Origin: Bradyrhizobium sediminis
GTDB taxonomy: Bacteria > Pseudomonadota > Alphaproteobacteria > Rhizobiales > Xanthobacteraceae
Reading direction: 5' to 3'
Assembly (NCBI RefSeq): GCF_018736085.1
Contig: NZ_CP076134.1
Location: forward strand, 4,970,501 to 5,034,500
DNA length: 64,000 nucleotides
The notes beneath the pieces are model-generated. The model was not told where the DNA came from. It saw only the letters and a list, made by a program, of their open reading frames with translations, and searched no databases. Below, piece after piece: positions 37,240 to 51,797 of this stretch. The translations under genes were made by a program, and so were the position numbers. Position 1 is the first letter of the stretch; each line of letters opens with the position of its first letter.

Positions 37240-38100
37240 ATGACCAAAAAGCTGAAAATTGCCTTCCAGGGCGAGCCGGGCGCCAATTCCCACATCGCCA
37301 TCGTCGAAGCCTATCCCGACGCCGAGCCATTGCCCTGCCCGACCTTCGAGGACGCGCTGGCCGCGATCGCCTCCGGGGAAGCCGACCTCGGCATGATCCC
37401 GATCGAGAACTCGGTCGCCGGACGCGTCGCCGACATCCATCATCTGCTGCCGCAATCCGGCCTGTTCATCGTCGGGGAATACTTCCTGCCGATCCACCAC
37501 CAGATGATGGCGCCGCGCGGCGCCAAGCTCTCCGACATCAAGACGGTGGAGAGCCACGTCCACGCGCTCGGCCAATGCCGCAACATCATCCGCAAGCTCA
37601 AGATCAAGCCGATCGTCTCGGGCGATACCGCAGGAAGCGCCCGCATCGTCGCCGAGCGCGGCGACAAGAGCTGCGCCTCGATCGCCTCGAGGCTCGCCGC
37701 CGATATCTACGGCCTCGATATCCTCGCCGAAGACGTCGAGGACGAGACCCACAACACCACACGCTTCGTGGTGCTGGCGCGCGAAGCGGCCTGGGCCAAA
37801 CAGGGATCGGGACCGCTGGTTACGAGTTTCGTGTTCCGGGTGCGCAACCTGCCCGCCGCGCTCTACAAGGCGCTGGGCGGCTTTGCCACCAACGGCGTCA
37901 ACATGACGAAATTGGAAAGCTACATGGTCGACGGCAATTTCTTCGCCACGCAATTCTATGCCGACGTCGACGGCCATCCCGAGGACCGGGGGCTGGCGTT
38001 CGCGCTGGAGGAGCTGAAATTCTTCTCGCGCGAATTCAGGATCGTCGGGGTTTATCCGGGCCATCCGTTCCGCGCGACGTTCAGTGAGAAGGCGGAGTGA
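37240..38100 (+). CDS. pheA: Prephenate dehydratase PheA
   Basis: A 286-residue monofunctional prephenate dehydratase. IAFQGEPGANSHIA opens the catalytic domain and the catalytic Thr lies in HNTTRFVVL (about residue 170). A C-terminal ACT domain (about 195-275) has ALYKALGGFATNGVNMTKLES, the phenylalanine-sensing segment. It converts prephenate to phenylpyruvate and is inhibited by Phe. There is no chorismate mutase domain, unlike the enterobacterial enzyme. Confidence 0.94.
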   Translation: MTKKLKIAFQGEPGANSHIAIVEAYPDAEPLPCPTFEDALAAIASGEADLGMIPIENSVAGRVADIHHLLPQSGLFIVGEYFLPIHHQMMAPRGAKLSDIKTVESHVHALGQCRNIIRKLKIKPIVSGDTAGSARIVAERGDKSCASIASRLAADIYGLDILAEDVEDETHNTTRFVVLAREAAWAKQGSGPLVTSFVFRVRNLPAALYKALGGFATNGVNMTKLESYMVDGNFFATQFYADVDGHPEDRGLAFALEELKFFSREFRIVGVYPGHPFRATFSEKAE

Positions 38101-38123
38101 ATTAACCGCGGGATTTCTCCGCA

Positions 38124-38215
38124 CGTCGTCCCGGCCTTGAGCCGGGACCCATACCGCGTGATGCATCAATAAGGCGCTGTGGCTGACGCCTACCGCAACA
38201 ATTTGCAGCGGTGGT
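38124..38215. repeat. Left part of a palindromic repeat (family D) split by the IS element
   Basis: It begins CGTCGTCCCGGC and runs ...GCCGGGACCCATA..., matching the left arm of the family D repeats at 57062 and 58916. The loop region follows, up to about GCGGTGGTT. The right arm is found 1.4 kb away at 39592-39630, on the other side of the IS. Confidence 0.7.
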
Positions 38216-38222
38216 TGATGGG

Positions 38223-38235
38223 GTGGACGGCCCCC
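38223..38235 (+). repeat. Left subterminal inverted repeat of the IS
   Basis: GTGGACGGCCCCC; its exact reverse complement is at 39577-39589. Confidence 0.85.
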
Positions 38236-38293
38236 TACGGCATCAGTTGTGCCAGAATGAGGTTGTTGCAAATCTCAGACAAAGGAGCCGTCC

Positions 38294-39334
38294 GTGGAAC
38301 AGATTATCCGAATTGGCATGGATACGTCGAAGCATATTTTCCAGCTGCATGGGGTTGATGCGACCGAACGGCCGGTGTTGCGCAGGCGGCTCGGCCGGGC
38401 GCAAATGGTGGCATTTTTTACCAAGCAGCCGCCGACCGTGATCGGGATCGAGGCCTGCGGTGCGGCGCATTATTGGGCGCGCGAGCTTGGCAAGCTCGGC
38501 CACGAGGTGAAGCTGATCGCGCCGCAACACGTGAAGCCTTACGTCAGGCGGAACAAGAACGACGGGCGAGATGCCGAGGGGCTGTGTGAAGCGATGGGCC
38601 GACCGACGATGCGGTTTGTGCCAGTGAAGACGGCCGAGCAGCAGGCAGCTTTGATGCTGGCAGGTCTCCGCGAGCAGATGGTCGCCCGTCGCACCCAGCT
38701 CAGCAATATGATCCGGGGCTATGCGGCAGAGTTCGGCCTTGCGGTGGCCAAGGGCCTCGACAAGATCGAACCGCTTTTAGCTGGCATCGCGCAAGATGAC
38801 AGCGTGCCGGCGCTGGCGCGCGAGTCGTTTGCGGTCCAGGGCCGCGAGTACGCGCAGTTGCAGGGAGAGTTGAAGGCAATCGAAGCCAGGCTGAGGGCCT
38901 GGCACCGCGGCAATGCCGATAGCCGGCGCTTGGCGAAGATTCCAGGAGTCGGGCCGATCGGCGCCACGGCGCTGGTGATGAAGACGCCTGATCCGCGTGC
39001 CTTCTCCTCGGGCCGGCATTTTGCGGCCTGGCTCGGACTGACCCCGAAAGACCACTCCACTGCCGGCAAAACCCGGCTCGGCAAGATCACCCGTGCCGGC
39101 GATGAGAGGTTGCGCAGCGTGCTGGTGGCAGGAGCGACCGCCGTGATTCAGCAGGCGAAGTACGGCCGTGGCCATCCATCGCCCTGGCTGATCGCTTTGC
39201 TCAAGCGCAAGCCGCCAAAACTCGCGGCGGTGGCGCTCGCCAACAAGATTGCCCGCATCGCCTGGAAACTGATGGTTACGGGGGATAATTACGACGGCGC
39301 GCGGATGTCTGAGGCATCGGCGTCAGCCGCCTAA
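38294..39334 (+). CDS. IS110/IS1111-family transposase (DEDD recombinase)
   Basis: A 346-residue protein, full length for the family. The N-terminal RuvC-like domain has Asp10 in GMDTSK, Glu53 in GIEACG, and Asp90/Asp93 in NKNDGRDAEG. The C-terminal transposase_20 domain carries IPGVGPIGATALV (helix-hairpin-helix-like) and the serine-bearing FSSGRHFAAWLGLTPKDHST. No frameshift or early stop is seen, so it is probably active. The GTG-containing ribosome region (AAAGGAGCC) precedes the ATG... start GTG at 38294 reads MEQIIRIGMD. It would move the element by RNA-guided recombination if the noncoding end encodes a bridge RNA. Confidence 0.92.
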   Translation: MEQIIRIGMDTSKHIFQLHGVDATERPVLRRRLGRAQMVAFFTKQPPTVIGIEACGAAHYWARELGKLGHEVKLIAPQHVKPYVRRNKNDGRDAEGLCEAMGRPTMRFVPVKTAEQQAALMLAGLREQMVARRTQLSNMIRGYAAEFGLAVAKGLDKIEPLLAGIAQDDSVPALARESFAVQGREYAQLQGELKAIEARLRAWHRGNADSRRLAKIPGVGPIGATALVMKTPDPRAFSSGRHFAAWLGLTPKDHSTAGKTRLGKITRAGDERLRSVLVAGATAVIQQAKYGRGHPSPWLIALLKRKPPKLAAVALANKIARIAWKLMVTGDNYDGARMSEASASAA

Positions 39335-39576
39335 GAGATCAGCCGGTAAGTTCGTCTTATCGGCTGAGCCGGAGCTGCAAGAGGAGCAGATGGTAGGATC
39401 GATCGATCCGAGGTGCGAGACAATCCGTGGGACCCATTGGCCCAAGACAGGTCGTGTGGTTGTTTGGAACTCGCGTCGCGGAAGCCATCTTGGCCAGCGG
39501 TCCAAGCGACCGCACCAACAGGCCGGACATATGGATGCAAGCGATCCGATCAGACCTCAAAAAACTCTTGTGGCAC
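39335..39576 (+). ncRNA. Candidate bridge-RNA region of the IS1111 element
   Basis: A 242-base stretch with no credible gene between the transposase stop and the right inverted repeat. In IS1111-type elements this end encodes the bridge RNA. GGGACCCAT at 39429-39437 is the exact reverse complement of the right target flank ATGGGTCCC (39592-39600). GTGGTTG at 39456-39462 equals the left flank at 38211-38217. Both fall within about 35 bases of each other, as expected of the two guides of one target-binding loop. RNA boundaries and folding were not computed. Confidence 0.5.
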
Positions 39577-39589
39577 GGGGGCCGTCCAC
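39577..39589 (+). repeat. Right subterminal inverted repeat of the IS
   Basis: GGGGGCCGTCCAC, the exact reverse complement of 38223-38235. Confidence 0.85.
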
Positions 39590-39591
39590 AT

Positions 39592-39630
39592 ATGGGTCCC
39601 GGCTCGCGCTTCGCTTGGCCGGGACGACGA
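39592..39630. repeat. Right arm of the IS-split palindromic repeat (family D)
   Basis: It runs from ATGGGTCCCGGC to GGCCGGGACGACGA and is identical over about 40 bases to the right arm of the repeat at 57062-57212. Confidence 0.8.
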
Positions 39631-39635
39631 GTGTG

Positions 39636-40655
39636 TTACGCCGCCGCCATTTTCCTCAGCCCGAACGCATCCGCCAGCAGGCTGTAGGATTTTTTCCGCG
39701 CGTCGTGGTCGTAGACGGCGGTGATGACCATCAGCTCGTCGGCCTGGCTCGCGTCGATCATCGGCTGCAGCTGTTGCAGCACCGTGGCCGGACTGCCGAC
39801 GAACAGCCGCGAGCGGTTGCGGGCGATCGAGGCGCGCTCGGAGTCGGTGTAGGGATAGGCCAAGGCTTCTTCGACGCTCGGCAGCGGCAGATACTGGCCG
39901 CGGTCGCGGCGCAGGCGGTTGAGATCCATCGACGACGCCAGCTTTTCGGCTTCCGCATCGGTCTCGGCCGCTACCACGGCGACGGCGAGAATGCCGTGCG
40001 GCGCCGCGCGCCAGCCCGACGGCTTGAAGTGGGTGCGGTAATTCATCATCGCTTCGACGGCGTCATGGGAGGCAAAGTGGTGCGCGAACGCAAAACCCAT
40101 CCCGATCTGCGCCGACAGCTCCGATGAGTAATCGCTGGAGCCGAGCAGCCAGATCGGCGGCAGCGGGCTGTCGTCCGGCATCGCCACCACATTGTTGTAG
40201 GGATGGCCGGGCGGAAAATCGCGGGTCTCCCACAGGATCAATTCATGCAGCCGCTCGAGGAAGTCGTCGCCCTCGCGGCGGTCGAGCCGGCTGCGCAGCG
40301 CATGCGCGGTGGCGCCGTCGGTGCCGGGCGCGCGGCCGAGGCCGAGATCGATGCGGCCGGGAAACAGCGCCTCCAGCATCTTGAAGCGCTCGGCCACCAC
40401 CAGCGGCGCGTGGTTGGGCAGCATCACGCCGCCGGAGCCGACCCGGATGTGCCTGGTCACCGCCGCGATCTGCCCGATCATCAGGTCGGGCGCCGGGCTC
40501 GCCACCGATGCAAGATTGTGGTGTTCGGCCAGCCAGTAGCGGACGTAGCCGAGGCCATCGGCGTGGCGCGCCAGGTCGATGCTGTTGCGCAAGGCCGCCG
40601 CGGGCTTCGTGCCGGTGGTGACGACGGAGAGATCGAGGATCGAGAGCGGAATCAT
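39636..40655 (-). CDS. Luciferase-like flavin-dependent oxidoreductase
   Basis: A 339-residue LLM-class protein. PLSILDLSVVTTGTKPAAALRNSIDLA, then YWLAEHHNLASVASPAPDLMIGQIAA and RVGSGGVMLPNHAPLVVAERF are the hallmarks of the YhbW/MsnO8-like subgroup. It would use reduced flavin and O2 on an unknown small molecule. Single gene; its stop lies six bases beyond the repeat that flanks the IS element, so the insertion has not damaged it. Confidence 0.88.
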   Translation of the reverse strand: MIPLSILDLSVVTTGTKPAAALRNSIDLARHADGLGYVRYWLAEHHNLASVASPAPDLMIGQIAAVTRHIRVGSGGVMLPNHAPLVVAERFKMLEALFPGRIDLGLGRAPGTDGATAHALRSRLDRREGDDFLERLHELILWETRDFPPGHPYNNVVAMPDDSPLPPIWLLGSSDYSSELSAQIGMGFAFAHHFASHDAVEAMMNYRTHFKPSGWRAAPHGILAVAVVAAETDAEAEKLASSMDLNRLRRDRGQYLPLPSVEEALAYPYTDSERASIARNRSRLFVGSPATVLQQLQPMIDASQADELMVITAVYDHDARKKSYSLLADAFGLRKMAAA

Positions 40656-49776: not shown

Positions 49777-50487
49777 CTATCCAACGACAAAGACCGTCGC
49801 AATGCTGTAGTTATCATCTGCATTTCGCAGCGCCATCTTATCGCTCAATATCTTGATAACAGCTTGAGGAGTCCGCACTTTCGAGGTCAAGACAAAAAGC
49901 TCTCGCAAGGGGATCTTGTTGTGAAACCCATCGCTTGAGAAGAAAAATCTATCACCGAGCATTAACGGAAAACTACCGGCGTCGATTTTCGGCTCTCCCT
50001 TGATGCCAAGCGCGCTCTCCAGAATGTTTTTACGCGGATAATCTTCGAATTGAGCTTTAGTTATCGCACCCGACGAGAGCAATCTTTGGGCTTCTGTATG
50101 ATCGACCGTGAGCCTGCGAATGCCTGCATTGCGAGCAACCGATATTCGCGTGTCTCCGCAGTGTACAAACTCCATCAAGCCGCTTCGGAATATTGCTCCT
50201 GACAACGTTGTTGCCATTGTACGTATTTCGGGGCTCCGCTGTTGATACTCCCGTATCTGCGAATGAATGTGAAGCGCCACCGATTGAAGATCGACGTTTC
50301 GTTCCGAAGCCAGATCAACGAATGTCTCGACTGCCAGCATTGACGCAATTCTGCCGCCGGCATGCCCTCCCAACCCATCAGCCACGGCAACTACTAGGTT
50401 GGCAGCACCAAATTCCTTCAGTCCAATCGCATCCTGATTTTCAGGACGCGGCCCTGCGCTTGTCAGAGAATCTACTACGAAACGCAT
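49777..50487 (-). CDS. PP2C-type Ser/Thr protein phosphatase
   Basis: A 236-residue PP2C phosphatase with the metal-binding motifs in order: ENQDAIG (about 17), VAVADGLGGHAGG (Asp37), HCGDTR (about 110), SSDGFH (about 190) and DDNYS (about 228). It removes phosphate from Ser/Thr and has no membrane segment. It overlaps the stop of the kinase gene by one base (TAATG), so the two are translationally coupled and the kinase is the probable substrate or opponent. GC is low (52% in 49981-50040 by hand count), unlike the flanking genes. Confidence 0.92.
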   Translation of the reverse strand: MRFVVDSLTSAGPRPENQDAIGLKEFGAANLVVAVADGLGGHAGGRIASMLAVETFVDLASERNVDLQSVALHIHSQIREYQQRSPEIRTMATTLSGAIFRSGLMEFVHCGDTRISVARNAGIRRLTVDHTEAQRLLSSGAITKAQFEDYPRKNILESALGIKGEPKIDAGSFPLMLGDRFFFSSDGFHNKIPLRELFVLTSKVRTPQAVIKILSDKMALRNADDNYSIATVFVVG

Positions 50488-51797
50488 TAGCAGATTTCAC
50501 CTAGAGTGTGAGCTAGCAGGGGGTGGAGGGACGTACGACTGACATGTATTGATCGCTCGAGATGAGAGACCGCCCTGCATACCTTTTCGTCGGAAGCGCG
50601 AAATTCAATCGCCAGACGCTTAGCAACGGGTTCGTCTAAGTCTGCGGAACATAGGCTTACAAACATTCGTTCAACGTACCAGCGATTGTGCGAGGTCCCC
50701 ATCAATAACAGCGCCATTAGACACTCGACTTTCGCCGTGATTGGAACCGATGAAATAAGGGCGGAAAGACGATCGGCAATGCCGTCACAGGCGTCAAAGT
50801 TGAATCCGGACGACGCAACCCATTCCGCATACACAACCGCCAACCTACCGGCGTTATCAGGGGCCTGGCCGCAGAGCTCCTCTATACGTTCGAGACTCAA
50901 CTTCCTAAGCAGGGATTTGCCGTCCTCGCTCGCCAGGTTATCCTCTACGAATTCTACAAACCGGCTCCATATGGCTGGCGTCATCGGTCCCGGCTTTTCT
51001 AAATGCTCGGCCAACTCCTTCGCCTGGTCGTTTTGTAAGGCGGGCGCCTTGGGATCTATTGATATTAGGGCATCTAAAAAAGCACGGACGGATTTGAACC
51101 TTCGGGCCGGATCAGTTCGGGTACATCCCAATAGAACTTGGGCGTAGTCGCCATCCTCCTTGATTTCTTGGCATGGTACCCGATCCTTCTGTCCAACAAT
51201 GTCGTGGAGTATGCATCCCAAGGAATAGATGTCTGATTGGGCCGATGCGCGCCTCAAATCAGCAGTGATCTCTGGGGCTGTGTAATAGTCGGATCCCTTC
51301 GCCATTCCAGTGGTCGTTAATTTGGAGAGCGTCGAGTCTTTTTGAGAAATCAATCCGAAATCGCTCACTGCATAGAATTGGGAATCACCTTCTTGGAATC
51401 GGAGAATATTGTGTGGCTTTAAGTCTCGATGATAAATATCTAGGGAGTGGAGCTCTTCGAGAGCCGCAACAATATCACTAATAACCGAAATGAAATTACC
51501 GCCACACGTGCGATCCTTATCTAGGTCATCACCTAAGCTAGAAAGCGCAACTGGCATCAAGTAGTAGGGCTTATCACCCTCTAAATTTTCACCAACAACC
51601 GGAACAATGTTTCGGTGACGAAGGCCCTGCTGCATCTTAGCTTCACGAATGAATCGTTTTCTGACGTTACTGACCATCTCCTCCGAGAAATTCTGACTAT
51701 TTGAGAACGTTTTTCGGGCAAATGGCATTCCCTTGTCGTCAGTAACCAAATCGACGACTCCGAAGCCTCCCGCACCGAGTTGTTTGACAAGTTTCAC
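50487..51797 (-). CDS. Hanks-type Ser/Thr protein kinase with C-terminal helical region
   Basis: A 436-residue cytosolic kinase starting with GTG (GAGG lies about eight bases upstream). The kinase domain (1-260) has the P-loop GAGGFG (8-13), Lys29, catalytic HRDLKPHN (123-130), DFGL (146-149) and APE (174-176), so it should be active. Residues about 265-436 form a helical region of no recognised family. No transmembrane or PASTA domain is present, unlike PknB-type kinases. Bases 51421-51480 are 43% GC by hand count. The pair looks horizontally acquired; a signalling or anti-phage role is possible but not shown. Confidence 0.92.
   Translation of the reverse strand: MKLVKQLGAGGFGVVDLVTDDKGMPFARKTFSNSQNFSEEMVSNVRKRFIREAKMQQGLRHRNIVPVVGENLEGDKPYYLMPVALSSLGDDLDKDRTCGGNFISVISDIVAALEELHSLDIYHRDLKPHNILRFQEGDSQFYAVSDFGLISQKDSTLSKLTTTGMAKGSDYYTAPEITADLRRASAQSDIYSLGCILHDIVGQKDRVPCQEIKEDGDYAQVLLGCTRTDPARRFKSVRAFLDALISIDPKAPALQNDQAKELAEHLEKPGPMTPAIWSRFVEFVEDNLASEDGKSLLRKLSLERIEELCGQAPDNAGRLAVVYAEWVASSGFNFDACDGIADRLSALISSVPITAKVECLMALLLMGTSHNRWYVERMFVSLCSADLDEPVAKRLAIEFRASDEKVCRAVSHLERSIHVSRTSLHPLLAHTLGEIC

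Follow-up and report, generated by a model that had tools for sequence, protein, structure and literature searches.

The 3′ noncoding end of an IS1111-type insertion sequence (IS) very probably encodes a bridge RNA (also called a seekRNA) that directs the element to the tails of CGTC-type REP repeats, with a left guide that would stand out of register on the target and two target bases, TA, that would be lost on insertion – this last step being less certain than the rest of the account. The element lies within the window, the whole 64-kb stretch of DNA analysed here (4,970,501–5,034,500 of a single-contig 5.55-Mb genome), to whose numbering all positions below refer. Relatives of the element put the reading to the test: at the guide positions, their RNA bases vary in step with their own insertion sites.

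The element and its target repeat

Judged from its sequence, the element (38216–39592, + strand), which has eight identical copies in the genome (100% identity, with 1,374 bases of the IS as query), is of the IS1111 type. Such elements are described in PMC11187229 (Siddiquee et al. 2024) as having subterminal inverted repeats just inside their ends and terminal extensions of 7+3 bp. Here, a perfect pair of 13-bp subterminal repeats (38223–38235 and 39577–39589, + strand; 100% identical, the usual length being 11–13 bp) is bordered by the left extension TGATGGG (38216–38222, + strand), which begins with the core TG and follows the family pattern TG[ATC]TGG[GTA], and by the right extension ATA (39590–39592, + strand), which reads ATA in 39 and ATC in four of the 43 aligned rows introduced below. 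Positions 38216–38217 and 39592 are counted as part of the IS because of the 7+3-bp end convention given in the same paper. The ends so drawn are consistent with the family pattern and the sister groups, but leave the joined flanks of this branch 2 bp short of the uninterrupted site. No target bases are added on insertion, and the longer noncoding region lies, as is characteristic of IS1111, downstream of the transposase gene (242 bases before the right repeat, compared with the 58 that separate the left repeat from the start codon).

The gene itself (38294–39334, + strand, GTG start) encodes a transposase of 346 aa that matches Pfam PF01548 and PF02371 (IS110-type DEDD and Transposase_20), both above cut-off, as well as NF033542, the model for RNA-guided transposases of the IS110 family (319 bits, cut-off 140). 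D10, E53, D90 and D93, read by eye, are candidate DEDD residues, and the nearest solved structures by sequence are the ISCro4 and IS621 transposases, to which the E-value link is distant. The IS may already have a name in use elsewhere.

The insertion interrupts a repeat dimer, whose first half lies at 38124–38151 (+ strand) and whose second half, at 39593–39629 (− strand), begins with the right half-site TGGGTCCC; the left half-site GTGGT is at 38211–38215 (+ strand), as identified from the flanks of the copies and the guide columns of the alignment. By the 7+3 convention, the left flanks of the eight copies have GTGGT (six) or GTGGC (two) at their ends, and the right flanks start with TGGGTCCC (six), TGGGCCCC (one) or TGATGGGTCCC (one, copy L006); read from the equivalent of 39592, the right flanks are ATGGGTCCC (six), ATGGGCCCC (one) and ATGATGGGTCCC (one). 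The repeats that the first-pass annotation had put forward as targets are indeed abundant and uninterrupted in the same genome, RNA-directed insertion into them being predicted: the loose pattern GTGGYTN{0,6}GGGYCCC has 46 uninterrupted matches, against two for a reversed control, and GTGGYTATGGGTCCC is present at 34 uninterrupted sites. The target sites are tails of head-to-head palindrome dimers with a CGTC tag, a stem of the GTCCCGGC type and a CCA tail. These features fit the CGTC-tagged REPs of alphaproteobacteria – including Bradyrhizobium – as set out in PMC3733652 (Di Nocera et al. 2013; a CGTC tag, a stem of the 8-bp type, a CCA tail and head-to-head dimers), and the assignment of the target, and of both dimer halves, to CGTC-type REPs is made by comparison with that description. 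The same paper reports CGTC repeats without transposase-gene association, bar a few fortuitous cases, whereas here one branch of IS elements has landed in CGTC-type REPs repeatedly.

The guide scheme does not readily accommodate copy L006. Its right flank, TGATGGGTCCC, is shifted by 3 bp from the register of the right guide, and its joined flanks equal GTGGTTGATGGGTCCC, a variant that occurs uninterrupted once, at G000:3551209. Elsewhere in the window (49777–51797, − strand), a gene for a PP2C-type phosphatase adjoins a protein kinase gene, with a stretch of lower G+C around the two (0.579 at 48–52 kb); the kinase resembles the PADLOC PD-T4-6 and mad6 kinases in its kinase domain only.

Probable guides that follow the insertion sites of relatives

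The first-pass annotation had proposed a bridge RNA on the basis of two matches to the flanks, both of which are exact: GGGACCCAT at 39429–39437 is the reverse complement of 39592–39600 (ATGGGTCCC), and GTGGTTG at 39456–39462 is identical to 38211–38217, with 18 bases between the two (about 20 had been given). Small corrections were needed to the guide register and the IS ends; the family alignment places the right guide TGGGACCCA at 39428–39436 plus the next base, T, at 39437 (+ strand), and the left guide GTGGT at 39456–39460 plus the core TG at 39461–39462 (+ strand). The two guides match opposite strands of the target halves in the IS1111 seekRNA order, in which, according to PMC11187229, the top-strand match stands 5′ of the bottom-strand match. 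Among 20,000 dinucleotide shuffles of 39335–39576, the 9-mer arose in 27 and the 7-mer in 252, with none containing both in the observed order within 60 bases; when 8,886 pseudo-sites elsewhere in the window were used instead, there was a 9-mer match at 11 and a 7-mer match at 173.

Comparing the flanks of other copies, as had been suggested, neither refuted nor tested the reading, because all eight copies share the same guide and have nearly the same flanks; relatives do provide a test. These were drawn from 98 genomes of the same genus, at least 86 of which have a match among the matches listed, and from named genomes (the best 80 of 105). An inverted-repeat pair was usable at 80 of the 110 loci examined and failed at 30. 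From the 80, we removed nine duplicates, 17 loci failing a strict GTGG/CCAC register (seven of them Croceicoccus/Novosphingobium rows that are about 65% identical) and 11 with an identity below 56%, leaving 43 non-redundant noncoding ends, which were aligned with the guides in fixed columns between conserved anchors. The fixed columns replaced a longest-match search for flank sequence in the noncoding ends, which was too loose for the left guide. Four rows were kept in the covariation counts although the left flank ends at a contig edge (L128 and L154) or the left end is shifted (L042 and L047).

Across the 43 rows, the right guide agrees with its own flank at 5.70 of 7 non-core bases, compared with 2.80 after permutation, and the left guide at 3.72 of 5, compared with 1.39, values reached in 0 of 10,000 permutations for either guide. 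When each distinct right target is represented by a single row (21 rows), the agreement is 5.38 versus 2.21 for the right guide and 4.0 versus 1.38 for the left (again 0 of 10,000 for each); the rows are kin, and permutation leaves this kinship in, an effect that the 21-row subset only lessens. The right guide fits at 7 of 7 bases in nine rows (L046, L055, L058, L059, L128, L130, L142, L147 and L149) and poorly, at three or fewer, in four of the 43 (L132, L151, L052 and L054). In L151, the right end is immediately followed by another sequence that resembles a right end, GGGGGCCGTCCACAT, as though two of them stood in tandem, and this arrangement may account for the poor fit of its guide.

The insertions L056, L057 and L060 (57% identity) lie exactly at a start codon, their joined flanks reading ATG or GTG followed by TGC AAT CTN (M-C-N-L-Y-S). 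The right-flank stretch of L060 has a Pfam SRAP match (1.5e-07), while that of L057 has no Pfam match; the beginnings of SRAP-type genes may be what these relatives target.

Folding of the 43 rows with RNAalifold gives a two-lobed RNA in a conserved region at 39386–39555 (+ strand; the span is approximate as an RNA). The target-binding lobe (39412–39477, + strand) comprises an outer stem (39412–39419/39470–39477) and, in the consensus fold, the stems 39424–39426/39466–39468 and 39438–39442/39450–39454, and the donor-binding lobe (39478–39538, + strand) the stems 39478–39480/39536–39538, 39491–39494/39522–39525 and 39499–39501/39509–39511. In the 26 consensus pairs retained for statistics (one 4-pair 5′ hairpin of the RNAalifold result was omitted), 94.2% of cells are standard pairs, and 68 cells are changed on both sides, compared with 18.5 in shuffles, none of 500 of which reaches 68; when the partners are slid, only 23–39% of cells pair. 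In the first internal loop, the right guide (39428–39437) faces the left guide (39456–39462), both unpaired. The annotation's expectation that the guides fall in loops rather than stems thus holds for the 43-row consensus, which we adopted, and not for minimum-energy folds of single sequences, which pair parts of the guides. Against Rfam, the region 38000–39800 gave four matches of 15.7–20.5 bits (thresholds 70–100), none above chance.

The second internal loop, which would serve the donor, sets CCATC (39485–39489, + strand), complementary to GATGG of the left end, opposite ACATATG (39527–39533, + strand), equal to the right IS end plus the core. Covariation with the donor is clear at the right end and partial at the left. 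ACATATG, ACATCTG and ACACATG go with the right extensions ATA, ATC and ACA in relatives, except in L065, which has kept ACACATG with the extension ACG; CCATC fits the left end here, fits partially in relatives with TGTTGG or TGCTGG ends, and fails to track the variable third position of the left extension. In a modelled circle junction, a candidate −35 box, TTGTGG (39568–39573, + strand), is followed after 17 bases by TATGAT, formed by joining 39591–39592 to 38216–38219 – a putative promoter, TTGTGG-17-TATGAT, proposed from consensus match only. Scored as a sigma-70-type promoter, the modelled 10-bp junction reaches 8 or 9 of 12 in 39 of the 43 rows, whereas a modelled 8-bp junction scores 8 in four rows and 7 or less in 39.

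With an element of the IS1111 type, guides that covary with flanks, the IS1111 guide order, the placement of the guides in an internal loop of a consensus structure with compensatory changes, and abundant uninterrupted repeats in the same genome, the bridge-RNA reading of the first-pass annotation is supported. That the matches arose by chance, or represent captured repeat sequence without a guide role, is scarcely conceivable: a multi-copy palindromic repeat as target would lend itself to such an origin, but the two matches have opposite strand sense within the fixed frame of a conserved RNA, and the same RNA positions track non-REP targets in relatives. It was on this guide–flank covariation that we rejected it.

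The TA missing at the left junction

With 7+3 ends, the joined flanks of this branch read GTGGT-TGGGTCCC, while the common repeat is GTGGT-TA-TGGGTCCC. Of the 80 loci examined in regions orthologous to five insertions, 30 have a REP tail. In these regions, 24 of 25 GTGG half-sites have two bases before TGGG or TGGA – TA in 21 – although the orthologous half of the dimer is not always certain in these counts; the sole exception is L099 from G010, which is TA-less and orthologous to the window's site. At the fifth insertion, the sole REP tail found is GGGGTAATGGG (L314). L289, aligned across the insertion site, has exactly TA extra. REP-type insertions make up 38 rows, and in none of the 34 with 72% identity or higher is the TA kept; these 34 rows correspond to 33 sites (L312 repeats L278), L006 being left out, and three of them are Rhodopseudomonas sites, TGGATTCC, counted from their integrated form. 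By contrast, the G054 element (64% identity) keeps the TA at the REP in three of three copies; in L126 (70% identity), the TA is not shown. In G054, the left guides are in register with the repeat and have CA or TA directly ahead of the core; in this branch, they end in bases such as GGT, followed by TG.

In the right guide, the base just 3′ of the core was also compared with the base that precedes the core in the element's own site, skipping L042 and L047. Of 26 other elements, 18 show a match (permuted mean 6.1; 0 of 20,000), while among the 15 close relatives whose left core is clean the base is U in all and matches the integrated base in none. This U pairs with the A of TA. On account of the orthologous half-sites, the contrast with G054 and the U at the right guide's core, the target that is recognised most likely contains TA.

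Integrated copies read alike whether TA is deleted from the target or the circle is 2 bp shorter, and we favour deletion because of the donor guide, the conserved ATA, the sister group and the modelled junction promoter. One alternative is a bridge RNA acting without target loss on a circle with an 8-bp spacer, the right extension being a single A and the target contributing the TA of the right junction; the predicted circle junction is then CCACATGATGGGG. Although the joined flanks would then equal the common repeat, we consider this possible but rather unlikely: the donor guide, ACATATG, corresponds to the AC-ATA-TG expected at the end of a 7+3 circle; 39 of 43 rows, with many different targets, have ATA in front of TG; 7+3 ends in the sister group restore the uninterrupted CTCGTGAACCGAGCC (two of 11 pattern matches being in that repeat context); and the 10-bp modelled junction outscores the 8-bp one as a promoter. 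That the element enters only rare REP variants in which TA is absent beforehand (GTGGTTGGGTCCC), with nothing lost, seems improbable. Uninterrupted sites of this kind do exist – three in this genome, seven in G010 (at least one of them, L253, outside a REP context) and eight in G042 – and they fit both guides without a gap; the half-site of G010 orthologous to the window's (L099) is TA-less as well. However, the other 24 of the 25 orthologous half-sites have two bases there, the U of all 15 close relatives pairs with the A of TA, and TA-less sites are absent both from G070, with at least five close copies among the matches listed and 142 TA sites, and from G004, with at least two close copies among the matches listed and 233 TA sites.

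Under the favoured account, and as expected from the family, formation of the excised circle would complete the promoter from which the RNA is transcribed; the RNA would then bind the transposase and link the circle to a CGTC-type REP at its tail. For the processing of the RNA and the order in which strands are exchanged, we follow PMC11187229 and PMC11208160. The guides change with the targets among relatives, and the second loop carries bases matching the IS's own ends. In the REP-targeting branch, the left guide would be offset by 2 nt relative to the right guide on GTGGT-TA-TGGGTCCC, so that the two junctions would be set separately and TA lost; 7+3 ends combined with a 2-bp loss predict the circle junction CCACATATGATGGGG. 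We rate as an even chance the more specific reading that the left and right guides address their half-sites independently and that the recombinase accepts the stretched GTGGT-TA-TGGGTCCC, removing two bases. Excision would in that case leave TA-less REP scars such as GTGGTTGGGTCCC.

The TA-less REPs of G000, G010 and G042 are suggestive of such excision scars, the alternative being that they are repeat variants. Speaking against excision as their source is G043 (L266), which has 17 TA-less and 25 TA half-sites – one dimer being TA-less in both halves – and no close relative of the IS among the matches listed; TA-less sites are far scarcer in the other genomes sampled.

Relation to known RNA-guided elements

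As described in PMC11187229, ISEc11, ISPa11 and ISKpn4 share with this element the subterminal inverted repeats, the downstream noncoding region, the guide order and, by the convention adopted here, the 7+3-bp extensions. IS1111 seekRNA systems described there also have a promoter at the circle junction (modelled in our case) and, for ISPa11, a REP as target, but differ from what we see here in the CGTC-type REP target, the left guide 2 nt off and the apparent 2-bp loss. The plan of the RNA – two internal loops with two guides each, for target and donor – is that given for bridge RNAs in PMC11208160 (Durrant et al. 2024), where IS621 and six IS110/IS1111 bridge RNAs likewise have two guide loops and a shared core dinucleotide. 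IS621, too, inserts in REP elements; it belongs, however, to the IS110 group, carries its RNA at the left end and has CT as its core, whereas the present element has TG as its core and its predicted RNA at the right end. Our literature search, which had most subscription journals outside its reach, found no published IS1111 elements at CGTC-type REPs and no 2-bp target loss.

The finding belongs to the known RNA-guided IS110/IS1111 class, with the apparent 2-bp loss at the landing site as a new detail. Genomes alone reveal bridge RNAs of an IS1111 branch that track many targets (21 distinct right halves in 43 rows), and guide bases that can be read at fixed positions should aid the finding and engineering of such systems. 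CGTC-type REPs, for their part, gain a regular user, and the missing TA, set against a relative that keeps it at the same repeat, makes the placement of strand exchange by each guide directly testable.
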